Of a stretch of DNA of 64,000 bases, positions 1 through 64,000 are shown piece after piece. Numbering within the stretch: position 1 is the first letter of the stretch; each line of letters opens with the position of its first letter. Under the pieces are notes generated by a model that saw nothing but the letters and a program-made list of their open reading frames with translations, searched no databases and was not told where the DNA came from. This DNA comes from Tetradesmus obliquus (taxonomy: Eukaryota > Chlorophyta > Chlorophyceae > Sphaeropleales > Scenedesmaceae), in assembly GCA_030272155.1 (NCBI GenBank), contig CP126200.1, positions 1,922,001 through 1,986,000 on the forward strand, in the 5' to 3' direction. The position numbers and the translations under genes are program-made.

Positions 1-1071
1 GCTGTTTATGGCGCGCCCGATCTGCATCAGGATGCGCTTGCGCTGCGCCTCCGCGTCCTCCTTCTGCCGCTGCAGCTGGTCCAGCACCAGCGCCCGTGCC
101 GCCCTGTAGTCCGCCTGCAGCTCGGCAAGGCTCTTGTTGCCAGGGCACGCGCCTGAGCGCAGCACCTATGTGTTTGTGGTCAGGTACAGGGAGCACAGCA
201 GCAGTGCAGGGTAAGCGACTGTGTAATGCTGTGGTTCGCATGCACCTCGGCGAGGCGCTTGTTGCCGGGGCACGCGCCGGAGCGCAGCATGTGTCTGTTT
301 ATACTTGCGCCTTGCTGCATCAGAATGAATTGTTACATTTGCAAACGGGGCTCGCCAACCCCAAACCCGAGCCCCAACAACAACACCACAGTATGTTTGT
401 AGTAGGGTACAAGCAGCACAGCAGCAACACAGTGTGAATGGGGGTGTCAGGCAGTATGGTGTAGCAGTAGTGCCATAGAGGCACTGGGCTCATCTCTGGT
501 GCATTACAGCAGCGATAGCGGCTGGTGCGCAGTGCGCACTGTCTGTGTTCAGCTGCAACCCCCACAGATCAACCTCATGATGCGGAAGTCAAAACTTGCA
601 GCGGCGCTGCCCCTCAACCGCAAGCACTCAGGCGCAGCAGCAGCCTCACCTCTGCCAGGCACTTGCCAGCCTCCATGCCCTGGCCATACTTGCCAGTGCT
701 CCAGCCCTGCTTGGCGCCGCCAGTCAGCGGCCCAGTGCCGTTGTAGTAGCTGGCTGCATTGCTGGCCAGCAGCTGCCCGGCTGCTGCTGTCATGCCGCCA
801 GGCAGCCTGCCAGGCAGAGGCATGCTGGCTGCACCAGGGCTCAAGCTCCTGCGGCCTGCTGCAGCTGCTGCTGTTGCTGCTGTTTGCATGCCCTGCAAAC
901 CCTGTATGCTGCTGCTCAAGCTGTCCAGGCCGCCAGTGTGTGGCCCGATTTGCTGGTTGCTGCAGCTGCTTGGTGAGTCTGCACCAGGGACCGGTGATGA
1001 ACACATTTGCAGTGCTGGCAGACCAGCAGCAAATTGGGGTGCTAGCTGTGTGGTGCCAGGAGCGTGCTGCA

Positions 1072-1111
<40 letters not shown>

Positions 1112-2768
1112 AGATGACACTTCTGCAGTGCCAGTGCTTTGCTGGTTATACAGTTGCAGCATCTGCTCAGCAAATGCCCTGCCAGGCAGCTGTGTACTGC
1201 CAGCAGCAGCAGCCTGCCACATCTGCTGCTGCTGCTGCGCCAACTGTGGGTGCTGCAGCAGCTGACTAAATGTTGCTGAGTTGCGCTGACCTGGCACATG
1301 CCCTTGCATGTTATGCTGCTGCTGGTGTAGCTGCGTTGCGCTGTTGCTGGCGCTGACTCCACCCGCAGTGCTTGTGCCCCTAATGGCAGCAACACTTGGC
1401 TTCAGGGATATCTTGTAGCTGGTGTATTGTGACCCTTGCTGCTGCTGCTGCCTGCCCCTGGCACCTGTTGACTTAGCACCTGCACACAAGCAAGCATAAG
1501 CAACCAGCTCCTTCAACCGGCAGCAACCCAGCTCACACATCAAGAAGCAGAACAAGCTACACAACCGCGCTGTAATGCATGCTGGGTCACACAGCACCTG
1601 TCTTTGCATGCAGCTGCTATTTCTCGTCAGATGTCCCATGACACACCACCATGCATCTGCCTTCCATGCCAACAGCCCAGCAGCATGAGAGCCTCACCTA
1701 ACGCTGTTAATATGGCCAGGTGCTGGGCCCACTTGTCAGGGAAGGCTGCTGCCACTTGCTGCTCAATCGCATCATAGTAAGCATCAGATGCGGGGTCGAT
1801 GCCCTGCTCCACCAGCCCGTCATGCACCTGCAACAGCCACACAGCACCGCTGCTCATGCATATACTACATGGCATGGTTTTTGATCAATATGCCGCTCAG
1901 CATAGCGGCAGCTCCATAGGATCAGAAAGAACCAGTTAACGCAATGCAAGGAGCCTGTACGTACGGCAATGCTGCAAGCTCACCTGGTATGCCAGCTGAG
2001 TCATCTCTGTATCCGAGCCGAACCAGCTGTTACGCTCCGCCCAGCTCAATGCCTTGGGCTCCGGTGCAACCTCTGCTGCTGCTGACGGTGATACTGCACC
2101 GCCCTGCTGTTTTGCATCCGCAGCATCAGCTGGCCGCAGCGGCACCGCCAGCGGCCGCACGTGCGTGTCAGCGGCTGCAATCGCAACCATGACTGGGCTT
2201 GCGCCAGGGCTGGTGCCTAGCGTCTCAATGTCTGTGACACTCATGCGCACAGGGACCAGCGTACGAGGCTGGTTGATGGACGCTGGCAGGCCACTGGGCA
2301 TCAGCATGCCTGCAGCACCAGTGCCTTCATAGTGCACAGCATCTGCAGGCGCGCCACCTGCTGCTACTGCTGCTGCCGCTGCGCTGTTTGTTGCCATCCC
2401 AGGTGGGAAGACGCCAGCTGCAGCCATGGCATCTGCATGCATGGTGGCATTATACTCCGGGCCCTGCTGCTGCAGCAGCTGCTGGAACTGCTGCTCCATG
2501 GCTGCCAGCCCAGGGAAATCATCCACCCCACCAAGCTGCTGCTGCTGTTGCTGCTGCTGTATGTAGCTGCCCCCAACACCAACACCGCCATACCCTGATG
2601 GTCCCACAGCCCCAGCTGCCCTGTAGTAGCTACTAGGGCTGACGCTGCTCCCTGCGCTGCTGCCAATACCAGCAGCAGCAGCAGCAGCACCAGGCCTGCC
2701 TGCAGCTGTTGGAAACTTGCTGCTGCTGCCAAGCCATGAGGGCGAGCCGCCGCTGCTACCGCCCAATC

Positions 2769-8122: not shown

Positions 8123-11100
8123 TCATGCGCTCCAGTTTGGCCATTGGCCGTGCGCAATAACATGCTCCACCAACGCCTTCAGCCCCCGCATCTGGAACTT
8201 CTCCATGGCTATCCTGAAGCCATCGCCATACACCTCGCTGGTGTCGGTGCGGATCTGCACACAGCAGTCACGGAGTAGCATTAGAGTTGACTACTGGCAG
8301 CATGGTGACAGCGCGTGCCAGCGTTTGGCTCCACGCCACATTTTTTAAACTAGCAGACTGACAGCTTTTGCCAGCCGGCGCAACGCACCCTGCAAGCGGC
8401 TGGCAGCTCGTGAGGAGGCATGTGGATGTGCAGGCCACTTGGTGCTGCTGGTAGAACTCAGCACAGTACTGGCATGCGCAAAGACAAACCCACATAACAA
8501 ACATTTCTCGTCATTTCTGCAGGCAGGCTCCTCCAGCAGCAGCTGCCACCTGGTAGCCCAGGTACGACAGCAGCCGCTGCTGCTAGTGCCAGCGGGGTTT
8601 AACACAGCAATCTCTCTGTCAAACTGGCATGTAGAAGCCTCAAGTCATAATGCAGGATGTCTCCGCATGCATGCATGCATGCAGGCAGGCGGCAGCAGCA
8701 CCCACCTGGTAGCCCAGGTATGACAGCAGCCGCTCCTGGTAGCCGCCCTGCTGCTGCTTGGCCCAGAAGTCCTGGCTGTCCAGCCACAGCATAGCCACCA
8801 GCTGGCACAGACCCTCCTCAACCTGACAGGGCAGGAGCAAGCCACAGCAGTAAGGCACAGCATCAGTAGCACGCGGCTCAACGCAGCACCAGTGCAGGAT
8901 TTGCTAAGGTCCAGCCACAGCATGGCCACCAGCTGGCACAGACCCTACTCAACCTGGGGCGGCAGCAGCAGCGAGGCACAAATAGCATAACCAGCAGCAG
9001 CACCAGCAGTACAGCAGAGCGCTTGGGCGTCCTCAGATAACAGTCACAGGAACGCACACGGCACAAACACAGTGCTGCGCAGGCATGCCTCTGGGGCATG
9101 AATCTCGTTCAGTGTAAGCAGCAGCATTGTGCCAATCAGATACCTACACCTTTACATGACGCACAGCACAACAGCACCGTGTTTGCATACCAGCCGCAAC
9201 ACATGCCGACACACATGCCTCCTGTACGCAGCCAATCATGCTGCCGCCAATCACCCTTTGCCCACCTGCAGCACTAGCCCCGTCGCGTGCAGCTCTCAGG
9301 TACGCAAGCATCAGCGCATGACCAACAGCACCAAGGGGAAAACCCCCATGTAGATACAAGGCCCACCACACTACATGGACACATACATGCCTCATGCACA
9401 CGGAGACAGCAAGCTCACGCTGCCACCAGTCACCTTGTACAATCCTCAGTCACCCACCTGCAGCGGCAGCCCCGTCACGTGCCGCATGCGCAGGTACGCG
9501 TGCATCAGCTCGTGCGCCACAATGCTGCCCAGCAGCAGCCGCGGCAGCCCATACATCACCAGCAGCGCACTAACGCTGCAGTGCTGCTGCAGCGGCGCCA
9601 TGCGCGTGGCGATGCTGCTGACCGGCGCTGCGCCGAACCCTAGGCCCTGGCCTACTGCACGCACCACAGAGGGGATCGTCCTGCAAGCAGCAACCAAGGG
9701 GGAAGACACAGCAGTGCATGTGTGTCATGTCTGTGCAGGTGTCTGTATGTGTGGCCCCAGCTGAAGCACCAGCAGTCCCACCAGCACAACTCGCGACATC
9801 CCAAGGTTTGCTGCTGCAACAACTCGACTCGATAAAAAAGAATGCGAACCCACTCCAGAAGGTCCAAAGAAAAAACCAACACAGCACTCATGTGTACACG
9901 TGCGCCGCGCAGAGCCCGCGCACACTGAACAGCCTGCTGCTTGGAAGAACAGTGTGTCTCCAGCAGCCACCCCCGCACACTGAACAGCCTGCTGCTTGGA
10001 AGAACAGTGTGTCTCCAGCAGCCACCCCCGCACACTGAACAGCCTGCTGCTTGGAAGAACAGTGTGTCTCCAGCAGCCACCCCCGCACACTGAACAGCCT
10101 GCTGCTTGCAGGACCAATGTGTCCCCACCACACGTCATCCAAAACTTTGCTGCTGCAGAGCAACAAAAGCGGAGAACGCGACCCAACCAAAGGGGCCAAA
10201 GGAGCCGTAACACAGCACTCACGTGTACACGTGAGCCACACAGAGTCCCCGCACGCTGAACATGGGCGTGTGTGCTGCGTCCTGGCGCCGCCCCTCCTTG
10301 TGCGCGTACTCGTCCAGCACCGGGCCCTCCACCAGCAGCAGCGGCGCCTTGTAGGGGTGCGGCATGCCCATGTGCGCAAAGAAGCCCAAGATCTGCAGCA
10401 GGCAGGAGTGTTGGCTGCATAATGTAACGAAGCAAAAAGCAACCCTCATGCCTTCGGCATGCAATGATGCAAAATACTCCCTAGACGTCAGCCGAGCAGA
10501 GGGTTGTGCTGGGGTGGCGCAATGGCACAAAAGAGATGCAGTGCATCACCAGCAGCGATCAAAGTTGGGATTAAGGGTTAGGACAGTGGCAAGGTCTGCT
10601 CACCTCATCGTACAGGGGCTGGGCATCCTTGGTGTCCACCACTAGCGTGTCCAGGCACTCCAGGCACAGGTGGCGGCCGTCCTGCAAGGCAGAATAGGCA
10701 CCCCAGGGGACAAAGCTGTGACTGTATGCCGCAGCAATAGCAGCATTGACCGCAACCGGTGTTGCAAACATGATGGCAGCGCAAATTTTGAGAGAGGATA
10801 GTTACATGTGGGTCCTGGCACCATCTTGGATGGTATGAGCCACAACAGGTTGAACACAGGTCTGAGACCAGAAAAGGAGAGTGAGCACCGTAAAACACAC
10901 TGCACACCCTTGAGCACCAAATGACGAGCGGCAACGCTATTCAATAATGCCCTCCTGGTTTCTGTGCCTTACCTCATCCAGAAGGGCTAGACCAACTGCA
11001 TGCACATGCAGGAGATGTGCATGCGATCTGCCTGTGCATGAAAGCACTTGAAAGGCAGCAGCTGCAGGCTCACAACGCAGCACAGGCCCACCTGCAGAGA

Positions 11101-40677: not shown

Positions 40678-41120
40678 TACTACTGTATGAAGGTCTTTAT
40701 GCTGCCTGTCAGCAGCTAGCTGCCAGGCATCTTCTGCAGGCCACATCCTCCGCTCCTACGCTGCTGCCACTGCTGCTGCAGCGGCTGCCACATGACATGT
40801 GACAGTGCCGCAACTGCTGAAGCTGTAACACATTGCAGCCCAGATCCTTGGTTACTGTCACAGCACAGCACAGCTCCTTGACTACTACTGTATGAAGGTC
40901 TTGATGCTGCCTGTCAGCAGGTAGCTGCCAGGCATCTTCTGCAGGCCACATCCTACGCTGCTGCCTCTGCTGCTGCAGCAGCTGCCCATACGACATGTGA
41001 CAGTGCCGCAACTGCTGAAGCTGTAACACATGGCAGCCACGCTTCTTGGCTACTACTGTATGAAGGTCTTGATGCTGCCTGTCAGCAGGTAGCTGCCAGG
41101 CACCTTCTGCAGGCCAGCCA
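40678..41120 (-). repeat. Three copies of the CLP1 stop exon beyond the stop
   Basis: TACTACTGTATGAAGGTCTT, which spans the stop and final codons at 41232, recurs at 41051, 40883 and 40678, each followed by the SYLL-coding string and a CTG-rich tail. Spacing is 168-205 bp. Confidence 0.93.
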
Positions 41121-41233: not shown

Positions 41234-43838
41234 CTACTGTATGAAGGTCTTGATGGTGCCTGTCAGCAGGTAGCTGCCAGGCATGGCAGCAGACGTGGGC
41301 ATGAGGCAGGTGACCTTGTTGCTGGTCACGTCCACGCCGTTGATCCACGCAAAGCCAGCCACGTTGCTGGGCAGCAGCTGGTCAGGCACCTGAGCAGCAG
41401 CAGCAGCAGCAGTAGAAGCACCAGCAGCAGCAGGGGCAGATGTTGCAGCAGATGCTGGCCAGACGCCAAGCAAGTACGTGGCTAGGCAGCTCCCGCTACG
41501 CACCACATAAGCTGCAAGGCAGGCTAGCGAGGGGTGCGGCATACGCACGGCACTGCCTCCTGCATGTTTAAACTGCCCACCGCCACGTTGCATTACTATC
41601 CCATGCTTGCCGTTGACTCTCACATTGGCATCACCACGGCCCCAAACCAAGATGAACAACCTGTAAACAAAGTCAAACACGGTCAAACCACAGCAGCCGC
41701 CCACCTGTGCGTGTGACACTGCCAGCAGCGACTGCTCCAGCTCCGGTGACACCACCACGGGCGTCACCTTCAGCGGGTTGGCGGCACGCGCCTGGCCCAG
41801 CGGCAGCGCAGAGCTGGGCGGCCGCGGGCCCGTGCCTGCGCAACATGCAGGAGATACAACATAGCATGATGGAAGGCTCAGTGAGACACCCTGAGCAGAT
41901 TGGCGGCACGCGCCTGGCCCAGCGGCAGCGCGGAGCTAGGCGGCCGCAGGCCCGTGCCTGCAGCACGCACGGCACAGCACACGTGTGAACGGCAGCTGGC
42001 CAACTGTTCGCCCCTCTGGTGAGGAGTAACACTCTTGAGATGCCAGCAAGAGGGACAGGCAAAGGGACACCGACGCAGATTTGACACACATCAACGCCCT
42101 CACCTGAGCGGAACACGCGCATGTTGGTGGCGTCCAGGTCAACAGAGACCGGCTGCAGCCCGCCGTCAGGCCCGTAAAAGTACTCCTTGATGCGCGCCGC
42201 GCGCGCCTGCTGCCGCGCGCTGCTGCTGCGCTGCGCGACGCCGCCCGACTTGTACAGCTTCACGACTGACACAGTCTTACCCATGGCCCCCACCTCACTC
42301 TGCGAGCAGCAGCAGCAGCAGCAGCAGCAAGCAACAGCAGTGTTGCAGCCATTGGGTTGAGCTTCAGTCAGGTGACAGATCAACGAAGTTGGTGACACAG
42401 CTGCACTGCTGCGGATCTGGGCGCTGCTGAACACGTAGCTTGATGAGTGGCTACAGTAGAAACTGCAGGGGGCTGCAAAAGGTGGCACAGAGGAATGACC
42501 TGTGCTGAGCAGACACTGACATTGTGCAGCATGCATGCCAGGGCTGTGTTGCAGCTTATGCTGCAGCTGTTTGCCAAGCTGCTCCTTGAGCAAGCTACAT
42601 ATGAAGATATATTAGACTCACCCAGACCAGAAAAGATTATTCAAGTCATGCTATACAACTCGAATGTGTACGCAGCACACTCACTTTGAGTTGGTTGGTG
42701 AGCTGTGTGAAGAGCCTGTCCTGCTCCATCACCAGCACCACATCAGCCTGCAGTAGCAGCAGCAGCAGCAGCAGCAGCAGAAACAGCAAGTTGTTGCAAC
42801 ATCAACCAATGTAACACTGTCCTGCTCCACCACCAGCACCACGTCAGCCTGCGGGCATCAGCGATGAGCATCAGCATCTTGAACACAACGTGGCCCAAAA
42901 GCTGCAGGGACCGGCTCCGCAGCAGCTCAAAAGCCCACTCCGTCAACATACACAAAACAGCAGCACAACAGTACAGCAGTACAACGGTACAGCACTACAA
43001 CAGCAGCATGGACTGGCAGTACTTTGAGTGACTTGATGGCGTGCAGCAGCAGCTCATGCCGAGCCCGACAACGTACCCCATGGTGCTGACCACCATGCCT
43101 GGGTGATAAGGAAAAGTCATAACCTTGGAATACCAACCATTGTAACACTCTGCCTTCATCATGCCTTGCTTTTCCAGCACGATCCCAACAACTTGAGAAC
43201 AAAGCACGCTGCAGGCACCCACACCAGTACAGCAGGCCAGTTACGATCCAAATCTTGTGGACAAACTCACATCTGTTGTAGCCGCACCTTGAGTGACTTG
43301 ATGGCGTGCAGCAGCAGCTCGTAGCCCAGGCCATCCACGTAGCCCATGGTGTTGACCACCATGCCTGATCGATAAGAACAGCAAACCTTGGAACAACCAC
43401 CTATTTAACAGTCTGCCCTCATCATGCCTTGCTTCTTCAGCAAAGGTCCCAGCAACTTACAAGCTCGCGGCAGGCACAACAGCAATACAGCAGATCAGGT
43501 TTTTGGATCCTGATTACGGTAACACGACTGGTTTGCTGTCTCACCTTGAGTGACTTGATGGCGTGCAGCAGCAGCTCGTAGCCCAGGCCATCCACGTAGC
43601 CCATGGTGTTGACCACCATGCCTGCAGCAGCCACCTCAGGAGAACTGGACGCCCTGCTGTCAAGCACGCTGCACAGCTTGTCCACCAGGTACTGCGGCAG
43701 CAGCAGCAGCAGCAGCAGCTCTATGAGACATCATGCGTTGGGAGTGCATAAGATAACTGAGGGAAGCAGCAGCGAGCTGGAGGCCCTGCTGTCAAGCACG
43801 CTGCACAGCTTGTCCACCAGGTACTGCGGCAGCAGCAC

Positions 43839-43883
<45 letters not shown>

Positions 43884-45658
43884 TCTGGTATGCTGGAGAA
43901 AAGTGTGTACAGCTTGCAGGCACGCACCTCAATGAGACTACAGGGGTTGGGAGTGACATAAGATAACTGAGGCAAGCACCAGCAAAGTGCCAGGCATCAA
44001 TAACGTAAAATTGCCGGCCCTGCTGTTGTATGCACATGAAACGTCACCCAGTTGTTTGTCTGACATATTTGTGTCAGCCAGACTGAGTGCGACGCAATGA
44101 TTCCTAGTAAGACAGCACTTCTTGATGTCAAGATGCGCACCCTGTACAGCTCCTCCTGCTTGTCTGGTGAGGTGTGGCCGAAGAAGTAAACCAGCGGCGC
44201 CTGCAGCACAAAAAGAAAAAAATAACATGATAAATTGTCAATGTTACACAGCAGCAGCAAAAACACCAACGTGGCTTTGCCACAGTTGTTGAAAGATCCC
44301 ATGGAAGCTGCCATGCAGCCTCCCTGCCATAGATTCGGTTGAGACTCGCTTGTAGCATCACAGCGCATACACACATAGCGCCCTGCCCAAATGCAGGCAG
44401 ACGAAGCTGTGCCGTTGCTGCATGTGCCTCAGCAACATCACAAGCGTGCACCTGCCTGTGTGGGGTAGCCTTCCTCTATTGTAATGGGGGCCTCCACAGG
44501 TGTGGCAGCAAGGCACCCGGGCACTGTTATGCTGCCTTGTCCTGCAGGGCAAGCAGCGGCAGGCAGCAGCAAACATGTTTGCGGCTGAGGTTCCTTCCGA
44601 TGTTGCGCATCGTGTGCCACGTGCAACTTGGGTGCAAGTGTCTGAGGACTGGGCAACTTGCAATTGAGAAAAACAAAATGGCGAAGCAAACACAGCAACG
44701 CACCTATGTCCAGGTCCACGTATGTGGGTTGGTGCTGTGCTCTTACTGCCCACTTGAGCAGCATGCGGCACATACTGCTCTTGCTGCTATCCGTGGGCCC
44801 TGCCACCACCACGCGGGGGCCCTGGCTGCCACAAGATATACATGCACACATTTAAATTTCATGCAACATTTCAGCCAGCAACAGCATGCTCTGCAGCTCT
44901 TCAGCAAGCATCAACCAACTGTGAAAAACTGTTTGACGGTTCAAATGCTCACCTATATCTAGGTCCACGTATGTGGGTTGGTGCTGTGCTCGTACTGCCC
45001 AGTTGAGCAGCATGCGGCACATACTGCCGCTGTCTGCTGGCCCAGCCACCACCACGCAAAGCCCCTGGCCGCCACAAGATACACATGTGCACATCTAATT
45101 CCATGCGGCATTTCAGCCAGCAACAGCATGCTCTGCAGCTCTTCAGCAAGCACAAACTAACTGTGAACAACTTTTTGACGATTCAAATGCTGACCTATGT
45201 CTAGGTCCACGTATGTGGGTTGGTGCTGCGCTCGTACTGCCCAGTTGAGCAGCATGAGGCACATGCTGCTCTTGCCGCTGTCAGTGGGGCCAGCCACAAC
45301 AAACAAGCCCAGCACAACACATGCTCTTCAGGCCCCCAGCAAGCATTAGCTGATTCAACATCCTGGCCCATTCATCTACGCGACAGGCCGTTGATTGAGC
45401 CCACCAGTGCCCTAAGGCATGTGCCGCATGAACAAACAACCTACCTATGTCTAGGTCCACGTATGTCGGCTGGTGCTGTGCTCGTACTGCCCAGTTGAGC
45501 AGCATACGGCACATGCTGCTCTTGCCGCTGTCAGTGGGGCCAGCCACCACCACGCGGGGGCCCTGGCCGCCACTCGCTTGCGCCTCCTGGCGCAGGTTGT
45601 GCAGCACTTGGTGGCAGTTGATGTAGGAGACGTTTGGGGTGTCCTCTGCCACGTAGCT

Positions 45659-45703
<45 letters not shown>

Positions 45704-46582
45704 GCAGGAGGTGAGAGGTTGTGCAGCACTTGGTGGCAGTTGATGTAGGACACGTTTGGGGGTGTCCTCTGCCACATAGCTGCTGCAGCAGCAGCAGCAG
45801 CAGCAGTTGCGGAACGTGCCGCGGCAGAGGCGTCAACCGCCCGAAATAATGAGCATGCAGGGTAGCGGGCGTTGATAGAGGCTGTGCTGTCAATCATCGT
45901 CAATCATGCAAGCTGCGACACGCTGGCTCACCAGGAGCTACAGCTTGCAGCACCATCTGGGCAACCAGTTGCGCAGACGGATGTCACCGGCATATACTTC
46001 AGGTCACCTGCTGCTTCTGTGTTTGCCGCTACACAGAAACACTTCTTGCTGGATGCATTGATGTCTGACTATCTAGCCGCTGCCGCTGCTGCTGATTCTG
46101 CTGCTGCCTAAAAGGGCTGGATGTCCCACGTACTTGCTGCAAACGCAGTGACACATTCACATGCGCCCTGGCTCGTCAGCAACAGCCAAGCCTAGAGTGC
46201 CAAACTGTCAAGAGGGTGATGGCACTACGCCAAGCGCCCCGTGCCAACTGACAAGGCTCTATCATTTGCGAAACCCAACATTGGCGTTGCCGCAAACCAC
46301 AAACCCCAGCGTTTTGCCACTCACACAAGGTCTGGCTCTCCCTCAATGGCCAGCTTGCAGGCGTGCCAGGTGAACATGTTTGTTTAACTGAAATGACACA
46401 CCCGGATCACAGGCCAGCCCTTTGCCACTCACACAAAGTCTGGCTCTCCCTCAATGGCCAGCTTGCAGCCGTGCCAGGTGAACACTGCCAGCGCATTGCC
46501 GCGCAGGCTCACTTTGCTGCCCAGCTGCAGCTCAGCACCAAAGATCTCCGCAGAGCCCTCCAGCAGCTGCAAGCAGCAACAG

Positions 46583-46614
<32 letters not shown>

Positions 46615-47253
46615 ATGAGAAAAAGGGTGGTCACGCAAGCAATCAGACTGTTGCAGGCTCTTGCCGGCGCTTGCCGTTGTTGTTGATGCCCAGCAATTGA
46701 AATGCAGCTCCTGCCAGCCGGCATGCATGTGACAGGTGCTGCCCTGCACTGCGTTGCTGCTGCTGTTGATTTCATGCTCCAGTCAGCAAGCTAAGCTGCA
46801 TACGTACGCTTGTCCTGCAAGCGGAACGGTGGTTACATGCACAATGACGAGGGAGTTGCTCGTGCTTGCATGCTGCTGAGCTGTCGCACACTTACTGTCA
46901 CAAACACATCCTTGTCCTTGTTTGCCTCCAGCCGAAGCTCTTGCAGCTGCAAAACATGGGTGTGCATGTGCGTTGATGCACAGAGCGGCAGCAGCAGCAG
47001 CACTGCTGTCAAGGCGCTGAATGGTTGCAGCTGCTGGAAGCCAGAACTACAGCTGCTGCCACGCCCTTCCAATGCTGATTGTTGCGTCATCGCAGAAGAG
47101 TTTACTTCATGCAAGTATCATGGCTGGCCTGTATGCAGCTGACAATTGCAGGGGCGCAAGTCAGCCAGCCTCACAGGCAACAAGTGACAGAGCAAACAGG
47201 CACTGGAGGAGAGGCCAGCTGCTGCTAACCTGTTTCAAGCTATACTCTGTCAT
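41234..47253 (-). CDS. CLP1: CLP1, polynucleotide 5'-hydroxyl kinase / pre-mRNA cleavage factor subunit
   Basis: CLP1 works in mRNA 3'-end cleavage (CFII) and, in animals, tRNA splicing; nuclear. Exons 47230-47253, 46896-46946, 46433-46566, 45445-45656, 44456-44541, 44141-44200, 43545-43691, 42685-42747, 42104-42299, 41705-41835 and 41234-41389 give 419 residues (human CLP1 has 425). Landmarks: [13 protein letters not shown] and [13 protein letters not shown] [10 protein letters not shown] in the N-domain; Walker [10 protein letters not shown] at 109-117; [81 protein letters not shown]; and C-terminal [13 protein letters not shown]. The 8-codon first exon (MTEYSLKQ) is inferred from splice fit. 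Intron 5 appears to use a GC donor. Most introns, and the 3' flank, contain partial exon copies. Divergent from MDH. Confidence 0.94.
41893..41966 (-). repeat. Copy of CLP1 exon 10 start
   Basis: Matches 41786-41838 closely ([19 protein letters not shown] string and the acceptor) and lies upstream of the real exon. Confidence 0.9.
42820..42858 (-). repeat. Copy of CLP1 exon 8 start
   Basis: Matches 42717-42751 ([10 protein letters not shown]) with two changes. Upstream of the real exon. Confidence 0.85.
43018..43375 (-). repeat. Two copies of CLP1 exon 7 end
   Basis: Copies starting near 43285 and 43021 match 43542-43625 ([20 protein letters not shown] to donor). The spacer containing CATCATGCCTTGCTT is also repeated, so the unit is about 260 bp. 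Confidence 0.92.
43782..43836 (-). repeat. Copy of CLP1 exon 7 start
   Basis: Near-identical to 43649-43703 ([14 protein letters not shown] and its acceptor). Upstream of the real exon. Confidence 0.92.
44700..45300 (-). repeat. Three copies of the CLP1 Walker A exon end
   Basis: Units start near 45192, 44950 and 44700; the real exon end is at 45443, so the period is 242-250 bp. Each copy runs from the donor through PTYVDLDIG back to the P-loop codons. The 44700 copy encodes GPTDSSKSS in place of GPTDSGKSS. Confidence 0.95.
45721..45783 (-). repeat. Copy of CLP1 exon 4 start with frameshift
   Basis: Matches 45600-45660 ([19 protein letters not shown]), but one extra G breaks the frame after DTP. 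Upstream of the real exon and also behind a CAG tract. Confidence 0.92.
46313..46376 (-). repeat. Copy of CLP1 exon 3 end
   Basis: About 64 bp almost identical to 46421-46484 ([17 protein letters not shown] and donor). Downstream of the real exon. Confidence 0.93.
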
Positions 47254-47807: not shown

Positions 47808-48844
47808 ATGCAGCTCAGCGCAGGTAAGACCTTATCACGTTACAGCAGTCTTTTACAAATGAATATGAAGCAGATCTGACGTTCGCGGCTGCATGCACAG
47901 GTCAGACAACCCGGGCAAGCGCCTTTACCGGCCAGCGCGTAGGTGTCCATGCAGTGGCACGCCCAGGCGCTGCAAAGGCGCGCAGGACTATGCCAGTTGT
48001 GGAGGCTAAGCGCGTAGCAGTGCTGGGAGCAGCTGGTGGCATCGGGCAGCCCCTGTCACTGCTGCTCAAGATGAACAAGTGCGTCACGGAGCTGGCGCTG
48101 TTTGATGTGGCTCCCCTCGTTAAGGGCGTTGCAGCAGACCTCAGCCACTGCAACACTCCCGTGCAGGTGGGTGCAGCGACTTCGCTTGAGCTGGCAGCGG
48201 CAGCGGTTGTCAGCAGTTTGCTTGATCAAACGTGACCCGACAGCAAGGGTTTGTTTGCACGGATGGCATGAGTCGCAAAGGGCCAGTGAATGGACGTGTG
48301 ATATACGGGAAAGTGCATTGTGCAGCGCAGTGGGGTGAGCAGCAGCTGGGTGTGTGCATGCTGTGGTGCAGCAGGTCATCGCCCGCAGTGCAGGTGCCAC
48401 TTGAACTGTTTGTCTACTACTAGTGCACTGCTGTAGTCTGCAAATGCCCTCTCTGTTCTACAGTGCACACTGCTATCCATAACCACACATGTGGTTGCAA
48501 GGTAAGCTGCTTGTCGACAGTGCAGCACAGTTGCAGTACACTGAGCAGTTTTGTTGTTCGCCTGCATGCTGCTTACGGTGCCCTCACATCAAAGGACTAC
48601 ATTGCTTCTGCAACTCCACATGCAGCCGTCAGCAGCAGTGCAAACGCCATCGCTTGGCTACAGGCTTGCACTCAGCAGCAGCCTGCTGAGCGTGTCTGGA
48701 CACCTCCTGCGGAGTCTGTTGCTTTGGCTGTTGCCATTTACAACTTCAAAACAGGTGTCAGCGCTCATAGGTGACGCTGCACTTAAGGCATGCCTCAAGG
48801 GCTGCTGCTGTTGCGTCAGTGCTTTAGTTCAGTTCAGTGGAACA

Positions 48845-48881
<37 letters not shown>

Positions 48882-51878
48882 AATCACAACAGGTGTCAGC
48901 ACACATGGGTGACGCTGAGCTGGAGGCATGCCTCAAGGGCTGCGAGCTGTTTGTCATTCCTGCTGCAAAAACACTAGTGATAATGAAGCCAAAACCCTGC
49001 ACCCACCCTCTTCTTACTCCTGCGGCCGGGATGCTGCTGCTGCTGCTGCTGTCTTTGATGCACAGGTGTCAGCACACGTGGGTGATGCAGAGCTGGAGGC
49101 GTGCCTCAAGGGCTGCGAGCTGGTTGTCATTCCTGCTGGAGTGCCGCGCAAGCCAGGCATGACTCGTGATGACCTGTTCAACATCAACGCAGGCATTGTC
49201 ATGAACCTGGTCACCGCCTGCGCAAAGTACTGCCCCAATGTGAGTGAGCATTCAGGTTTCAGGGGTTTTACGAAGGATCCAGTTGTAGTAGCAGCAGCTG
49301 AATGACCTGTTCAATATGTACGCGGGCATCGTGATGCACCTGGTCACCGCTTGTGTGTAGCACTGCCCCAACGTGAGTGTTGTTTGTTCTGCATAGAAAT
49401 TGGGTGGTTGGTGACTGTCTCAGATCAACGCCGTCTTCTTGGTGAAATTGATCACTGCGTGTCCAAAGTACTGCCACAACGTGACAGGTTCTGGACTAGG
49501 GTTATCAGGTACCAGCTGGGTAGGGCGCCTTGAACAGCAGAGGTCAGCAGCGGACGCCTGGTGGTGCAGAAGTTCTGTGTGCACAGCAGACCTATTTTCA
49601 CACAGCAGCACAATTGGGAGCAGCAGAGGCATGGAGCAGCTGCGAGCAAGGGCCTTCTCAAACGTGTTGCCGCTGCTGGTGGTGGTGGTGGTGCTGCTGC
49701 TGCTGCTGCTGTTGTCGCAATGCAGGCCATCCTGGAGATTATCTCCCACCCCGTGAACAGCACGGCGCCTACCATCATGATGGATTTTGATAACTCCACA
49801 AGCAAACACACACCAACACCTGCTGCTGCTGCTTCAATCGCTGTATCACAGGCCATCCTGGAGATCATCTCCAACCCCGTGAACAGCACGGTGCCCATCG
49901 CCAGCGAGGTGCTCAAGGCGGCTGGCTGCTACGACCCACGCAAGCTGCTGGGAGTGACCACGCTCGATGTCGTGCGCGCCAACACCTTCGTGGCGCAGGT
50001 GAGGTTGGAGGTTTGCTATGCATGGCGCCATCTATCCACCATTGTGTGTTTCGCACGGCGCTGCAGCTGCGGCATGAGCTGTCACGTGTGTGGCGCGCAG
50101 GGCCGGATAGCTGGCTGTGAGGTGGTGATATACATGCAGGCTTTGGTATGATATATTTGAGTTGGCAAGCTGCTGGGGGTGACCACGCTGGACATGCTTG
50201 CCGACACCTTCGTGGTGCAGCTGAGCCCGATTGGGGCATGTTCCACGTGTGTGTTTTGTATGGCTCTGCTGCTATCTGTGCAGCTGGAGGTTTTGCTGTC
50301 ATGTTCCTTGCGCCTGGCTGCGGTTTTGCAGTTGGTTACCTGTGCATGTTCTGGTTAAAGCACAGATGTGCAGTCAGGGCTGCAGGTGTCAGTGCCTATG
50401 TGCTGTTCCGCTTCACACGACTGGTGGGCTCATAACCTGTTGAAGGCAACTGGTTGCCAGCCCACCGTGTGCAAGGGACCAGGACAAGCACTGCACCACC
50501 TGCCTTGCTGTAACACATGCATGGTTGCTGCATGCTTTCAACTCTTTGACATAGCTGTTAGTACTTGTCTCCACACATGTCCTTTTTTACTGCTCCATTG
50601 CGCACGGCTGGTGGCTCCTCTTGACCTGCTGATAAGCAGCAGGTTGCAAGGCCACCAGCGGTTTGCATGGGAACAGTGTGTGCACTGCACAACTTGCCTG
50701 CCTTGCTGCGATGCTTGCATGGTAGCTGTTGGTTTTGGTGTGTTGGCAGCGCCTGCTGATGCCAGTGTAAATGTGCTGCTCCGCTGCACACCGCCGTCAG
50801 GACCATACTTGATCAGCGCATCAGGTTGCAATCCCACCCGCGCTGTGCACAGGATCAGTGCACGCGCTGCACTGATAGCTCTGCTGCAATGTGTGCATGG
50901 TTGCGCCAGTGCTGTGGTGCTGCTCTACTGCATACGGCCGGCGAGCTCATAACCTGTTGGATAGCAACTGGTTATCAGCCCATCGGCGCTGTGCATTTGA
51001 ACAGGACGTGCACTCCACCACTAGCTTTGCTCCGCATGCATGCAACTAGTGCACAAGACAACACGTGGCCTGCCAGTTGCTGCTGCAAGAGCGTGCCCTA
51101 TGCCGATGCACATGAGTTATGGGCTCATAACCTGTGGAAGGTTGTGAAGGCCATACCTCGTGTGCTTGAGCATAGCACCATGCACAGCCTGCGCATGGCT
51201 GCGTTGTTGTTCAAACTGCTGTATCTTCTGGGTTTCTGCATCGAGTGCTGTCATGGCATATGGAGGCCTTGTGGTGCATGCAGCGTGCCTGATAGTTGCT
51301 GCTGCAAGTATGTGTTCCTCATAAATGTCCATGTCTAATGGGCTCATAACCTGTGTCAGGTTCCAAGGCCATCAGGTGTGAGCTGTTATGAACAACACAT
51401 ACTTGTTTGTAAGCCACTTCCACATGCAAAATGCTTAACCACACGGCAGTGCTTGTGCTTGCTTGTAGTTTGGGCTTATTGCTACTTTTGCGGGGTTGCT
51501 GCATTCAAGCGCAGTCAGCATGTGACATGTTGGTGGCGTAACCAGACAAGCTTTCATGGCTTAGTTGTGCTACAGCAACAGGTGTGTTGGCCTGCTTGTA
51601 TGCTGATGTATAGTGTGCATGCTACTGCCGCTGCCGCCGTGCTGTCGGTGTGTTGATCCCACGCTGCTGCTGCTGCTGCTGTGCTGACATGTGCTTGTTG
51701 CTGCTGCTGCAGGCCAAGGACCGCGACCCGAAGGAGGTGGATGTGCCATTGCTGCTGCTGCTCTTGCCAAACTGCGAGTTTGGCGCATGCTGCTGCCGCT
51801 GCCATTCTGTGCAGGCCAAGGACCACGACATGAAGGAGGTGGATGTGCCATTGCTGCTGCTGCTGTATCGACTTGTGC

Positions 51879-51932
<54 letters not shown>

Positions 51933-52220
51933 TTCTGTGCAGGCCAAGGGCCTTGACCTGAAGGAGGCGGATGTGCCATTGCCGCTGCTGCCCTTCGCCA
52001 AACTGCGCATGCTGCTGCTGCTGCTGCTGCCTCCATTCCGTGCAGGCCAAGGACTTCAACCTGAAGGCGGTGGATGCGCTGTTGCTGCTGCTGCTGCTGT
52101 ACTGACTTGGGGCATGCTGCTGCTGCTGCTGCCATTCTGTGCAGGCCAAGGGCCTTGACCCGAAGGAGGTGGATTTGCCATTGCTGCTGCTGCTGCTGCT
52201 GCTGCTGTGCTGACGTGCGC

Positions 52221-52266
<46 letters not shown>

Positions 52267-52915
52267 AGGCCAAGGGCCTTGACCTGAAGGAGGTGGATGT
52301 GCCGGTCATTGGCGGCCACGCAGGCATCACCATTCTGCCGCTGCTGTCACAGGTGAGGCATGGTGTTTGTGTCTGTGTAGTCAGCAGTCAAATTTAGTCA
52401 AAGTTGGTTGAACATAGGGTCAGTCACAGCTCAGGGAGGCACAGCCTGCAGCCGGTGCATCACGATCCTGCCGCTGCTGTCACAGGTGAGACACGGTTGC
52501 AACAGCGCCTATGATCAGCAGTCGAAAGCAGTACACAGCAGTGCGGTCCCCAGCTCAGCAAGGCACAGGCTGCAGCCAGTGCATCACCCTGCTGCCGCTG
52601 CTGTCACACGTGAGGCAGGGTGGTCGGCGGTGTGCATTGGCAGTCACACGCAGCAATGAACCTAGTGCAGTCATGCAGCAGGTATGATGCAGCAAACTGT
52701 GTGTTCTGATCATGCCATGTCAGGCCCTCCATGCACTGGGTCTGCGGCAGCAGCTGAAACACACATGTATTTAATCACTTGCATCAAATATACCATCATG
52801 CTCCTGCAGACGGTGCCGTCAGTCACCTTCAGCGACGCGGAGCGCAAGGCGCTCACCAGCCGCATCACACACACTATAATATGGGGTTGATGGCATCAGC
52901 AAACCCTGCTCCGGT

Positions 52916-52948
<33 letters not shown>

Positions 52949-53984
52949 AGACTGTGCCATCAGTCACCTTTAGTGATGCGGAGCGCAACGCCCTCACCAG
53001 CCGCACCAACACACCATAACTTAACAAACCCTGCTGCTGCTGCTGCAGACGGTGCCGTCAGTCACCTTCAGTGGTGTGGAGCGCAAGGCCCTCACCAACC
53101 GCAACACACACTTGATTTAAAAACAATCCTGCTGCTGTGCTGCTGCTGCTGCTGCTGCAGACTGTGCCGTCAGTCACCTGCAGCAATGCGGAGCGCAAGG
53201 CGCTCACCAGCCGCACCAACACACCATAACTTAACAAACCCTGCTGCTGCTGTTGCTGCTGCAGACTGTGCCGTCAGTCACCTTCAGTGACGCGGAGCGC
53301 AAGGCCCTCACCAGCCGCATCCAGGACGCAGGCACAGAAGTGGTGGAGGCCAAGGCGGGAGCAGGCAGCGCCACGCTCAGCATGGCCTATGCTGCTGCCC
53401 GCATGGCAGAGTCCACGCTGCTGGGCATGCAGGTGGGTGGTCCTGGTTGACGCAGCGTTGCTTGCAGGGCTGTCTGTGTCGCATCATACTGGCAGGTGTT
53501 TGTGCTGGGGTTGTTCTCCTTGTGCGGCCCCTGGCTATTGAGTTCTGATGCATTTGGTGGTGGTGGTGGTGGTTGAGGCCAGGGCAGGGGCAGGCAGCGC
53601 CATACCTCAGCATGGCTTATGGTGCTGGCCGCATGGCAGAGTCCACACTGCTGGGCATGCAGGTGGGTGCGGCTGAAGCAAGGCTGTCTGTCATGTTGTA
53701 CACACAAATGCCCCGCTGGTGTGAACGGGTCTCTTGAGCGGCAGCCTGTCTGTCCACACTGCTGGGCATGCAGTGGAGCTTTGCAAGGGAGTCTGTGTTG
53801 TTGTACATGCAGAGGCGCTGTTGTGGTGGGTGCGTGTCATCAGCTTGTCGGTGCTGGGTGCTGCTGCAGCAGCTGGTGTCGGTCTCTTTGCGCAGCGGCG
53901 CTCACCTAAGACCTTCAGGTGTTCGTCGCACCGCAACAGCGGTATCTCTGCATGCTTCGTAACAACTTCGGACTGACGTTGTCA

Positions 53985-54019
<35 letters not shown>

Positions 54020-54255
54020 GCATGCAGGGCGAGCCCAACATGTTTGAGTGCGCCTTCGTGCAGTCGGATGTCGTCCCCGGCTCTCCCTTCTTCGCATCCC
54101 GCGTGCAGCTGGGCCCAGAGGGAGTGGCTAAGGTGAATGGGCTGGGCCAGCTCAACGAGTTTGAGAAGGCAGCAATGGAGGCGATGCTGCCGGAGCTGAA
54201 GGCTCAAATCGAAAAGGGCATTGCATTTGCCAAGAACCCTCCCAAGAAGGATTAG
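47808..54255 (+). CDS. MDH: NAD-dependent malate dehydrogenase, organellar type
   Basis: Interconverts malate and oxaloacetate with NAD. Exons 47808-47823, 47901-48166, 49066-49239, 49852-49998, 52269-52352, 53265-53432 and 54028-54255 give 360 residues. The first about 41 residues (rich in Arg/Ala/Ser, e.g. [20 protein letters not shown]) look like a chloroplast or mitochondrial transit peptide. Motifs: Rossmann [14 protein letters not shown] (from about 44), substrate arginines in [12 protein letters not shown] (122 and 128), [33 protein letters not shown], catalytic His218 in [13 protein letters not shown], and [14 protein letters not shown]. The C-terminus is NPPKKD, with no peroxisomal SKL-type signal. 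Only 1.08 kb of the 6.4 kb gene codes: introns 2 to 6 are packed with tandem copies of adjacent exon edges, listed separately. The real exon in each array is the copy next to the rest of the exon. Confidence 0.96.
48755..48990 (+). repeat. Two copies of MDH exon 3 start
   Basis: Copies at 48755 and 48893, each after ACAG, read [17 protein letters not shown] and [20 protein letters not shown]. The real exon (49066) reads [20 protein letters not shown]. The nearer copy is the closer match. Confidence 0.95.
49303..49483 (+). repeat. Two copies of MDH exon 3 end
   Basis: Copies at 49303-49374 (DLFN to donor) and 49421-49483 (KYCHN to donor) resemble 49171-49242 and lie in the next intron. Confidence 0.88.
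49735..49790 (+). repeat. Copy of MDH exon 4 start
   Basis: Encodes [16 protein letters not shown] behind a CTG tract; the real exon at 49852 has [16 protein letters not shown]. Confidence 0.95.
50162..50222 (+). repeat. Copy of MDH exon 4 end
   Basis: Resembles 49941-49999 (KLLGVTTLD ... NTFVAQ). Downstream of the real exon. Confidence 0.88.
51713..52170 (+). repeat. Five copies of MDH exon 5 start
   Basis: Copies start at 51713, 51815, 51943, 52046 and 52145, each after CAG; the real exon starts at 52269. All encode variants of [12 protein letters not shown] and are separated by long CTG runs. Confidence 0.97.
52456..52613 (+). repeat. Two copies of MDH exon 5 end
   Basis: [15 protein letters not shown] strings with donor recur at 52456-52488 and 52573-52613 after the real exon end at 52352. 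Confidence 0.9.
52810..53222 (+). repeat. Four copies of MDH exon 6 start
   Basis: Copies begin at 52810, 52951, 53049 and 53161, each behind CTG tracts and CAG; the real exon begins at 53265. Copy 1 encodes the identical peptide [19 protein letters not shown]. Confidence 0.97.
53583..53774 (+). repeat. Two copies of MDH exon 6 end
   Basis: 53583-53661 matches the codons from GAGSAT to LLGMQ plus donor; 53752-53774 repeats only STLLGMQ. CTGGGCATGCAG occurs again directly as the acceptor of exon 7. Confidence 0.9.
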
Positions 54256-60012: not shown

Positions 60013-61690
60013 TTAGCAACTGCGCCGTACTGCTGCCCAGAACTCCTTCACATGCTCGTCTGTCACCTGCTCACAGTCATCCACCCGCAACTTCTGCAGG
60101 CGAGACAGCCCAGTCAGCAGCATCAAGCCGTCACGTGTCAGCCCAGCACTACCTGCAAGACCTAGCTCTGTGAGCAGTGTCAGCTGACCAATCGCTGCTA
60201 AGCACACCATGTCGCCCAGCTCACACCACCCCAGGTCAAGGTGCTGCAGCTGCTTCAAGCTGCAGGCCAGCAATGTTGCAGTCGTATCATCCACTGCGGC
60301 CCCCTGCCCTGCCAGCACGAGCCGCGTCAGGGCGGTGAGGGTTGACAGCGCCCGAGCGTCGCCAGGTACTATTGAGTTTGGCGCGATGACGAGGTGTTGA
60401 AGGTTCTTCAGGCCCGCTAGCTTGAGGCACACTGCCACTGGCCGCGCATAGCGATAGTACCCGCTGTCGGATGCCAATGCGTTGATTTGCAGCTTGGTCA
60501 GCTGCGTGCATGGCGCAACCGCATCCAAAATAGCTGCCACGCGGCTCGGCCGCGGCGCGGCATGGGTGATACCTACGTATGCAAACATCAGCTCGCGCAG
60601 CTGCGGCAGCTGCGCCCAGACAGCACCACCTACTGCTGCGTCATAAGGCAGGTGGTACTGCAGGGTCAGGTGCTGCAGGTTTGGCAGCTGGGCCAGCTGC
60701 AGCAGCGGCTGCTGCTCTGTGAAGCCTACCACCAGGCTTAGGCGCTGCAGCAGCTGCAGCGGCAGCACCGCCGACATGATGACCGCGGCGTCAACTGCCA
60801 GCAAGTGCAGCTGCTGCAGCTGCGATGGCAGCACTGATCCCACCGGCAGGTGCTGCCCAATTGTCAGCTGCTGCAGCTGCCGTAGGTTGGACAGGTGGAG
60901 CACTGGCAGGCTGTCATCGGTCTGCAGATCATGGTGCTGCAGCGGCAGCGGCTGCAGCAGCAGCTGCTGCAACTCGTTCTCATCGCCCCACCACAGCCCA
61001 GACAGCCGCAGAGATGTCAGCCGGCTGAGCTGCGCCAGTACTGCGAGGAATCCTTTCATCGGCTGCCGCTGCCACCTTTGTAAGCGCAGCTGCTGCAGGC
61101 TGCTCAGCCTCACAAGCACCGCCGACAGAGCGGCAGCATCTACCGTGCCATAGCATGTCATGCTCAGCTCCAGGTGTGTGAGGCTGTGTGCTGGCAGTGC
61201 AGCCAGCATGCCTAAGTCGCCTGGCTCTCCTAGGCACCTGCTGCTGAAGCTGGCCAGCCGCAGGCCCTGCTGCTGCTGCTGCTGCTGCTTCTGCTGGCGC
61301 TTGGGGGTGCAAGTCCCTGCTGCAACTGCTGCCGTTGCTGTGTTGGCTGGAGGCAAGGCTGCTAGCTGCAAGGCCTGCCGCAGCAGCTGGAATGCTGTCC
61401 TGTAGTGCACCTCTGCCTGCAACCCGTGAATGCCTGTTTTCTGATCCGGCATTCTGCTGGAAGTGATGCTGATGCTCCTGACCAGGCCAGCATGCTGCTG
61501 CAGCCAGTCGCAGAAGCTGCCCAGCTGCAGCAGGCTGCTGTGCAGGTGCAGCTTGATGTCTGTGTTGCAGGCGCTGCACTGCCGCACTGCCTCCCTCCAT
61601 GCCTTGCAGGCACGCGCTGCTGCACAAAGCACTCTGGGGTTGCTGCTGGCTGCTGGATTCTCTAGAGAGATGGCCAGAGCTAAAGATGCG
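60013..61690 (-). CDS. Leucine-rich-repeat protein, F-box-like N-terminus
   Basis: A single long open frame (60013 to at least 61632) of about 540 codons. It has many LRRs of the form LQQLRLQRWQRQPMKGFLAV, LTSLRLSGLWWGDENEL, LQHLDLGWCELGDMVCLAAI and LQKLRVDDCEQVTDEHVKEF. N-terminally, NPRVLCAAARACKAWREAV resembles the second half of an F-box. The frame stays open to about 61710, where an in-frame TAG sits next to a possible AG acceptor; there is no in-frame ATG near there, so a short upstream exon probably holds the start. A poly-Gln run lies near 61275-61300. Substrate unknown. It is convergent with the BolA gene. No intron and no exon copies seen. Confidence 0.75.
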
Positions 61691-62686
61691 CCAGATGGTT
61701 GGTGACTCTATATAGAAAGCAGACCAGCATTGTAGCAACAGCGGCAGCACAGCAGTAAGGCGTTGGCCAAAGCAGTAGCAGCGCCAGCAGTGCACTCCCC
61801 GTGCAGTTGTTCCCACAGCAGCAAGCTAAAAATGAGCGGTTTTGGACAGTTATATTTAGATGTCAATGCCAATTTGCACTGGCATCATTTCCTAGTGTGA
61901 TCCCACGCCACGCAGCTCACCTGCATGTTGCCGTGCGGCACAGGCGTGAAACCTTGTGATAACAGCAGAAGCTGGGGAGTCCATACGATACGATTTCGGT
62001 GGCAGTTGCTGTGAAGTGCTGTTTTCGGAGGCACGCCTACCAAGCACACCGGAGTTGGTATCTGAAAAGTCTCAAAAAGGGTTTCGTCTGTTTAATCGCG
62101 CGCACAACTCCTGACAACGTCGAATGTTGCATATCAAGCTTAAAATTGCATACGTATTTTTAAGTTGCCTGATGCGTAGCTGAAGCGGTGGACAGAAGCT
62201 ACAAATGGCTAGTTACTGTGCAGCAGCCTCATCAGCTCTTGCAATCAACCATAGATGCTGCTGAGTCAGAACTTGCCTTCAAGGCACACGGCGTGTTCAC
62301 TGTATCAGCATTATATGGCACACCATCACCACACTGAACAGCAACAACCCCACCAGCAACAAAAGAGCAGCACAACCTTGGACTCAGTCTGAACAGGAGG
62401 TGTAACACGCACAAGCTGGACAGTGAAGCTGTTCGAACATAGCACACGTGTCTATCACCGTGACGGCGCAGGATACCTGACATATCAACCAATGCAGCGA
62501 ACATCCTACAGCTTCCTGCAGGCCGTTTTATTGCTGTTATGGCTGCGTTACTGCTTTTGTCACCCTCAACACACGTATGTGCATGCATTGTATGCAGCAG
62601 CGCTGATTATTCCAAGGAGATAAAGGGACACATCCACATCAAACTTGCAAATCAGCAGCACCATAGCAGTGTAGCGAATTTTAGAC
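61691..62686. other. Intergenic, LRR gene 5' side to right-edge gene 3' side
   Basis: Probably holds the LRR promoter and any short first exon. Nothing else recognised. Confidence 0.45.
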
Positions 62687-64000
62687 TCAGCTTGTGCGCA
62701 GGCCAGCAGCCTTGGAGGCTTTCGACACTGGTACACCACCGCCAGACCCCGACCCTGGAAATGACAGCGCTGGCAGCGACATGAGGCCAAAGTTTATCTG
62801 GATGCTCTGCTTGGCTGCGCACAGGCTGTCACTCCCTCTGCTGCCAGTCACCTCGACAGCAGCAACAGGCAGCAGGGAGGGTGACAGATGCAGCTCATCT
62901 GTCAGCCCAGCTGAGTGCTGGGCAGGATCCTATGTGTATGCAGCGTCCATCCTGCTGCTGCTTCATCATTTGCACCTGCAGCAGCTGCTGCTGCTGCCGC
63001 TGAACCTGGCTCTGCCCGCAGTGCTGCTGCAGCGGCTGCTATGGAAAGTGGCGTGTTGTCTGCAGCGTTGGAAGGCCCACCCCTGAGTGGCAGCGCCAGT
63101 GGCTTGCTGCTGTGCCGCTTCTGCCACATCTGCTGCTCTATGCTCAGCACACGCAGCTCCTGCGAGGCAAGCACATTTGCAAATCACACTGCAGCATCAC
63201 TGCACCATATATATACTCTTCCTTAGTGACCGTACTGTATGCTCTACAGCATTGAAGGTGCTTAGTTTTGCATTTCCTTGGTCCTCAGAACCCACGAGCC
63301 ATACAATGTCATCCTTCTCCCGTACAGCAGCAACAGCACATGCTAAGCTCTCCAGGCATCCCTTGCAGCCATGCAAGTTTGGCCAGCATGCGCTGCCACT
63401 TAAGGATTAGTTGCGGCGAGACCCACATCCACTGGCGACACAGCAGACTATCAAACACGCTACTAGCCCACTCCAGCTGCTGGCCACTGCTGCTTGCCCA
63501 AACCACAAATCACATGCAGATCACCCCCTGGAAGCCCTGCCGCACATCATGGAGGTCACTGAGGCACATCCTGGCAGTACAACACAGATACACATAACAG
63601 TCCTCTTCACAAAACAAGCCCAGGCCCCCTGCTCCCACCTGGAAGCCCTGCCGCACATCCTGGAAGTCCCTGAGGCACGGCTGCCTGTCCATCCTGGCGC
63701 GCCACTGCTCTGCACGGCTTACAGACACCTGCACCAGGAAACAGCACAGACTCAGGCTTTACCAGCAGGCTTCACCGGCAGGCTGTGTCAGCTCAGGATG
63801 GAGCTCCTCAGGCGCTGCCCGTAGTGCCTGGTCATACTCCCGCTCCTGGAAACACCATTAGGACGATGCCAACGCACAAGCTCTCTACTTGAAGCGAGCG
63901 GATGCACAGGAGCAACAGCATGGAATGAGCATGATGATCACACAAGACACTCCTGCTGTTGAATAGAAAGTCCTCAGCGGCTTGCAAACATTGCTTTTCA
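62687..64000 (-). CDS. Unrecognised gene, 3' part, running off the right edge
   Basis: I cannot name this product. Exons 62976-63159 and 62687-62898 join in phase (g plus AT) and end KASKAAGLRTS then TGA; a further likely exon is 63639-63728 (VSVSRAEQWRARMDRQPCLR, then DFQDVRQGFQ), which joins the next in phase 0. A possible earlier exon near 63780-63848 reads EREYDQALRAAPEELHPEL but its donor phase does not match what follows. The 62976-63159 exon has charged IEQQMWQKRHSSK then an Ala-rich stretch. Support for coding: splice consensus at each edge, continuous frame, and a partial copy of the 63639-63728 exon end at about 63524-63568, the same pattern as at known exons in this window. Confidence 0.5.
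63524..63568 (-). repeat. Copy of right-edge gene exon end
   Basis: Matches about 63638-63685 (FQDVRQGFQ and neighbours). Downstream of the likely real exon. Confidence 0.85.

Follow-up and report, generated by a model that had tools for sequence, protein, structure and literature searches.

Introns of Tetradesmus obliquus hold partial copies of the exon edges that adjoin them, and the side on which a copy lies depends on the edge that it repeats. The pattern was studied in a 64-kb window (contig C10, positions 1,922,001-1,986,000, of a genome of 104.66 Mb on 17 contigs), to which all coordinates refer unless another contig is named. A copy of an exon START or exon END in the adjacent intron is termed an echo; START echoes lie upstream of their exon and END echoes downstream. 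The pattern is confirmed by exon-edge searches in nine genomic blocks, by two genes whose exon borders are fixed by protein homology, and by a self-comparison of the window. Its origin is probably, though by no means certainly, repeated tandem duplication across coding/intron boundaries in the course of break repair, with the decaying copies trapped in the intron, combined with either gene conversion or exon-biased breakage.

The window (block W) was analysed together with five 40-kb blocks from contigs C1, C2, C4, C9 and C16 (B1-B5) and one 10-kb stretch each from contigs C3, C6, C8 and C12 (K1-K4). A gene finder was trained on the window and the five 40-kb blocks; its splice signals are very strong (donor CAG/GTGAG, acceptor CTGCAG/G). 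The exon borders of the malate dehydrogenase (MDH) gene and of CLP1 were corrected by protein homology, and all remaining gene models are unverified finder predictions. Main counts refer to nine blocks (W, B1-B4 and K1-K4; 264 kb) and to exon edges searched up to a ceiling of 100 nt. Block B5 (C16:1.00-1.04 Mb), which is tandem satellite-like, was excluded from these counts and is included in an earlier test on raw models. A preliminary edge scan (A_up 42, A_dn 40, D_dn 47, D_up 40, of 320 each) was uninformative on geometry, because its long queries spanned whole short exons or satellite arrays and the search extended beyond the adjacent intron; it was replaced.

In the raw models of six blocks, 40-mers from exon STARTs matched the upstream intron in 18/242 cases and the downstream intron in 0/242, and END 40-mers matched the downstream intron in 16/242 and the upstream intron in 1/242. 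The same test gave no match with reverse complements, none in dinucleotide-shuffled introns, a comparison proposed in an earlier sequence-only reading of the window, and 0.08% in random other introns. With corrected models, echoes were found in the nine blocks at 66 of 580 junctions (31/294 acceptors and 35/286 donors), wrong-way copies at 3/208 and 5/222 (8/430 together), and inverted copies at exon edges not at all. The geometry that had been described as strict is therefore very strong, but not absolute. Within the window, 43 echo hits (24 START, 19 END) occupy 30/125 junctions in six of seven gene models. About sixty copies in eight of eleven genes had been proposed; the threshold applied here returns fewer, some further, more worn copies being visible by eye, and eleven genes are plausible, as some models fuse neighbours. 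The self-comparison returned 69 direct repeats at spacings below 3 kb versus 7 farther apart, and within 1 kb 62 direct repeats versus no inverted one.

In the two protein-fixed genes, START echoes lie upstream at 8/16 acceptors and END echoes downstream at 7/14 donors, and wrong-way echoes are absent (0/16 and 0/14). This contrast (15/30 versus 0/30) leaves an artefact of assembly or gene models hardly credible, although the finder does mistake some echoes for exons (in the raw MDH model and in a Tra1-like gene in K3) and exact copies of the exon sequence occur in a few cases. The majority diverge from their exon, by up to 27%, and are therefore not assembly repeats.

Echoes comprise about 20-100 nt of exon, up to the ceiling of the search, and occur singly or in arrays. 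Of 100 hits in the nine blocks, 85 start no more than 5 nt from the junction; the 15 that start farther away were removed, and the filtered set underlies all results on flanks, spacers, decay, periods, distribution, simulations and splice-site scores. One to four copies were detected per array, with a median nearest period of 128 bp (10-90% range 100-229); the sequence-only reading had given one to five copies and periods of roughly 50-265 bp. As a rule the match covers a stretch that begins at one edge (up to 100 nt searched), not the whole exon; a few exons shorter than 70 nt are copied nearly whole, in unverified models. A CTG tract is present at 13/28 acceptors with a START echo and at 74/266 others, a weak link. 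Two echo-rich stretches were also compared with the whole genome. No dispersed element was found behind the echoes: judged by query coordinates, off-locus matches were confined to CTG/CAG or other simple-repeat parts, plus two at MDH exon 5, in a search in which common words were skipped and, in one scan, 40/268 first-look candidates were scored. The same sequence at many unrelated loci, as with introners, was not seen.

An origin by tandem duplication across the junction is the most likely one, because homology often runs on into the intron. The intron-side extension has a median of 23 nt for END echoes versus 5 by chance, and of 33 versus 12 for START echoes; 37/83 spacers are homologous at p<=0.05, with about 4 expected by chance. 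Some young copies are alike on both sides, as at exon 14 in K3 (exon part 35/35, flank 53/54). Junction-exact copying, in which homology would end sharply at the splice site, was dropped because gap-tolerant alignment and extension gave intron homology in many pairs. On these grounds the duplication across splice junctions put forward in the sequence-only reading is supported, as is its suggestion of intron growth: exon-derived copies make up 721/4760 intron bases in CLP1 and 807/5365 in MDH, spacers left out.

In the favoured scenario, segments spanning a coding/intron boundary, with about 20-100 nt of exon and a variable intron part, would be duplicated repeatedly in tandem, and unrelated filler would sometimes separate the copies. 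The source may be the repair of staggered breaks or paired nicks, of which such duplications would be the expected footprint. As long as the 5'-most donor is spliced to the 3'-most acceptor, one exon would stay intact after a duplication that spans either kind of splice site, and the outer copy would be trapped in an intron that becomes longer. Duplications within exons would be purged. Free of selection, the trapped copy would decay beside an exon that keeps its place, and its exon part could therefore remain recognisable. In a further step, exon-to-echo gene conversion (or unequal exchange) may renew the exon part, or breaks may start preferentially in exons. Neither echo residues nor added ones are present in the proteins of CLP1 and MDH, and the outermost pair of splice sites is used in both genes; judging from them, the splice sites of echoes would not be used by splicing in this species.

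Copying is not exclusive to splice junctions. Downstream of CLP1, three tandem copies of the edge between stop codon and 3' untranslated region (40686..41102, minus strand; identity 0.93-0.98 over 44-45 nt) show that the duplication process is not limited to them, so that splice junctions as the place of copying hold in the main but not without exception. These copies fit the scenario above, provided that duplication may strike every coding edge.

Several observations weigh against tandem duplication as outlined. No homology at p<=0.05 was found in 46/83 spacers. In the young array at K3 exon 14, the leftmost copy lacks the spacer present between the copies, and this spacer was therefore not duplicated with the first copy. 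The nearest copy is more similar to the exon than the farthest in 12 arrays, less similar in 4 and equally so in 2, a trend that fits the scenario but is weak (sign test p 0.08). Past the donor, END flanks have an identity of 0.58-0.65 in 5-nt bins and of 0.48-0.52 at +6 to +8, versus 0.83-0.85 and 0.77-0.80 in a neutral-duplication simulation whose gap rate was fitted to that of the exon parts; harsher indel settings (0.79-0.82 and 0.65-0.79) still lie above the observed values. Pooled intron flanks are far more diverged than exon parts, unlike in some young copies. Finally, junction-crossing and intron-internal copies stand at about 58:11, a ratio that combines two detectors with thresholds matched as far as possible and in which the 11 are 15 rows merged by hand, whereas simulated ratios are 0.66-1.74 under matched detection and 2.26 in the harshest indel setting. 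The excess of crossing copies is significant at p 1e-4 to 4e-14 (11/69) or 2e-3 to 4e-12 (15/73), and at 0.005 for a ratio of 2.3. Plain neutral duplication fails both the flank-identity and the crossing-ratio test, and the statement that it would leave exactly the pattern seen was too strong.

The same two tests bear on the simplest version of the process, in which tandem duplication is uniform along genes and junction copies stand out through exon purging and exon conservation, with neither preference nor conversion. This version accounts for the geometry, for the arrays and for the neutral decay of the copies; the same blocks also hold tandem duplications inside introns and between genes, and very high intron indel rates raise the expected junction excess to the 2.26 given above. 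Both the observed ratio and a flank identity too low for uniform neutral duplication nevertheless make it rather unlikely.

The excess at exon edges, together with the poor flank homology, suggests that conversion or exon-biased breakage acts in addition to tandem duplication; the data point to an exon part that arose later, or was hit more often, than the remainder of the copy. Conversion would explain the first END echo of CLP1 exon 7, whose exon part is identical (79/79) beside a flank of 75/111, and a conflict between exon part and flank at CLP1 exon 4. There, the flanks of the first two END echoes are alike at 106/119 positions and the flank of the real junction agrees with that of the first echo at 37/63, whereas the exon part of the first echo matches the exon at 95/100 and the second echo at 86/94. 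Filler-like spacers in young copies, such as those at K3 exon 14, speak for filler insertion at duplication. More tentatively, exon edges in parts of this genome may be preferred sources of duplication whose copies exchange sequence with the exon by conversion, the junctions acting as a conveyor that feeds the introns with exon-derived copies that bear splice sites but are ignored by splicing; this extended form is possible rather than probable.

Selection of echoes as decoy or alternative splice sites, a reading also offered from the sequence, is very unlikely. Most echo splice sites do still look usable, 29/39 acceptors and 35/46 donors (64/85) scoring above the 10th percentile of real sites. 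The splice dinucleotides, however, are intact in 73/85 echoes (AG 34/39, GT 39/46), versus 69.6 (32.2 and 37.4) expected from decay, and periods divisible by three show no bias (25/85). Mismatches to the exon number 73/1170, 88/1177 and 177/1170 at the three codon positions (about 6-8% at the first and second, 15% at the third), which is what an unconstrained copy shows next to an exon in which mostly silent changes are tolerated. On account of changes at the first and second positions, purifying selection on echoes as coding sequence was rejected, and neither the CLP1 nor the MDH protein has echo residues. The splice sites of echoes decay at the pace of the remaining copy and look neutral.

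Creation of new introns by duplication, as in the Rogers model, where a duplicated AGGT segment provides both splice sites, is likewise improbable as a general account. Most START echoes come with an acceptor and most END echoes with a donor, and since echoes carry the same junction's own splice site, they copy pre-existing junctions; a donor from one copy combined with an acceptor from the other is not seen in general, and no residues were added to the CLP1 and MDH proteins. A report on potato does describe a new intron from an acceptor-crossing duplication (PMC4974935), and the last MDH intron is a candidate exception. Its last 15 nt, CTGCTGGGCATGCAG (54013-54027), are also the end of exon 6 (53418-53432), as the Rogers model predicts; this could be a trace of intron creation or of replacement of the acceptor by an END copy.

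Echoes are patchy and clustered by gene and region. After the 5-nt filter, 58/580 junctions bear an echo, distributed as 28/125 in W, 9/97 in B1, 2/96 in B2, 0/66 in B3, 0/116 in B4, 0/16 in K1, 2/17 in K2, 13/28 in K3 and 4/19 in K4. The K3 count is rough, some echoes being miscalled as exons in its model (visible in the translation), and B4 had one hit before filtering, starting 13 nt from the junction. B3, B4 and K1 together have echoes at 0/198 junctions, and the scatter among 41 genes is larger than in all 5000 binomial simulations. A lineage-wide process, as had been suggested, is too strong a description for echoes that, in the one species sampled, cluster in this way and are absent from three of nine blocks. 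In some genes, echoes accompany as many as about half of the splice junctions. Echo-rich genes beyond the window include one with an E1_dh Pfam domain (pyruvate-dehydrogenase-like, B1) and one with a Tra1 ring domain (K3). In a family search, a kinesin gene at C2:7430665-7431399 (7.43 Mb) gave four tandem matches, three of them extra, that share profile positions ~263-289 and are likely START echoes at the protein level.

Within-gene duplications involving exon-intron boundaries are known, and small tandem duplications have reportedly been described in rice by Vaughn and Bennetzen in 2014. Arrays of partial copies of exon edges, recurring at many junctions within a single gene, are not known to have been reported. 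Full-text literature searches returned no description of the exon-edge echo pattern, which is not proof of absence; the words "intron" and "splic" are absent from PMC12571836 and PMC7955037. Three reports describe related events. In potato RdRp, a tandem duplication of an intron-exon boundary gave a new intron in a single event (PMC4974935), whereas T. obliquus has many events per gene, which lengthen existing introns and leave the two checked proteins unchanged. Neo-introns in Daphnia are attributed to staggered double-strand breaks (PMC4202315); as in T. obliquus, direct repeats of exon ends surround the insert, and repeated breaks are proposed to lengthen introns, but the repeats there are 4-12 bp long and belong to new introns, compared with mostly 25-100 bp, established junctions and arrays here. 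Short tandem duplications also arise from repair at breaks with complementary single-strand overhangs (PMC8355091), in that text mostly below 100 bp and without a link to splice junctions; a similar origin may apply in T. obliquus. As far as the literature was searched, the process is a known one in extreme form, its new features being how densely echoes occur in a gene and how long the copies are. The system offers a natural experiment on intron growth, where the source of some of the added sequence is identifiable, and on the choice of the spliceosome among near-identical sites.

The CLP1 gene (41234..47253, minus strand) has 11 exons (47253-47230, 46946-46896, 46566-46433, 45656-45445, 44541-44456, 44200-44141, 43691-43545, 42747-42685, 42299-42104, 41835-41705 and 41389-41234), and its translation equals the public T. 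obliquus protein OEZ86_005348 (419/419 identical), the match on which the assignment of the window to this species rests. Exon 3 has an END echo at 46325..46376 (identity 0.96, GTGAGT intact). Exon 4 is preceded by a START echo at 45716..45779 (0.95, with CTG tract and CAG) and followed by three END echoes at 45195-45294, 44953-45046 and 44704-44803 (0.95, 0.85 and 0.88; period ~245). A START echo of exon 7 lies at 43774..43823 (0.96), and the edge search placed its two END echoes at 43288-43367 (80 nt identical) and 43024-43101. Further START echoes belong to exon 8 (42817..42848, 0.94) and exon 10 (41887..41957, 0.90). The public protein implies a GC-AG intron at the donor of intron 5 (44455, CAG/GCAGGT). 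Another public T. obliquus CLP1, P0122 (A0A383VI97), has 11 different residues where the exon-6 residues belong; its gene model looks as if read through the CTG tract of an intron, near an echo-bearing junction. In these algae echoes will also be mistaken for exons by gene finders, as happened with the one used here.

The MDH gene (47808..54255, plus strand) comprises exons 47808-47823, 47901-48166, 49066-49239, 49852-49998, 52269-52352, 53265-53432 and 54028-54255. Its product of 360 aa aligns without gaps to MDH of Scenedesmus sp. NREL 46B-D3 (344/360 identical) and matches MDH entries in PDB. Exon 3 has two START echoes with their own ACAG acceptors (48755-48805 and 48893-48965; 0.78 and 0.93) and an END echo (49302..49371, 0.81, GTGAGT intact); exon 4 has a START echo (49726..49769, 0.93, period 126) and an END echo that has lost its donor (50165..50220, 0.83). 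The START echoes of exon 5 form an array at 51713..52179 (51713, 51815, 51943 and 52145, with another visible at 52046; 0.89-0.97), each with CTG tract and GCAG, and two END echoes follow at 52457..52608 (0.93 each). Four START echoes of exon 6 at 52810..53215 (52810, 52951, 53049 and 53161; 0.91-0.95) have intact CTGCAG acceptors, and its END echo at 53569..53662 (0.88 over 93 nt) retains CAG/GTGGGT. The matches to exon 5 elsewhere in the genome, C2:3746663-3746746 (80%) and C5:4354289-4354374 (77%), are probably MDH paralogues.

Besides MDH, Pfam matches in the window comprise a DA1-like LIM protein adjoining a kinesin, an LRR protein and a TXD17-like protein. The DA1/kinesin model (Pfam DA1-like and Kinesin, minus strand) has END echoes at 9266-9315 and 8550-8586 (0.81 and 0.92) and a START echo at 8909-8953 (0.96), and the LRR gene (plus strand) has START echoes at 16961-17037 and 19868-19892 (0.73 and 0.92). 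The unverified model 24632-37317 (minus strand), read from its translations without a family match, probably fuses E3-ligase-like and AP2 genes. The edge search placed START echoes at 27148-27199 and 27281-27339 and END echoes at 26538-26566, 25973-25998 and 25861-25890 in it, with further echoes at 32718-32823, 35403-35474, 35973-36014, 36001-36033 and 36244-36301, the last matched by two neighbouring edges; between 35792 and 36472 the finder treats some copies as exons, which makes its exon calls there uncertain. An END echo of model 60013-63728 (minus strand) lies at 63528..63567 (0.93, donor lost). The ~95 bp at 296-390 have matches of 87-97% on at least five other contigs and are probably a dispersed repeat. 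The excluded block (C16:1000001-1040000) contains big tandem arrays with periods of ~279, 350 and 1689 bp, the 1689-bp copies being 100% identical over the compared stretches.

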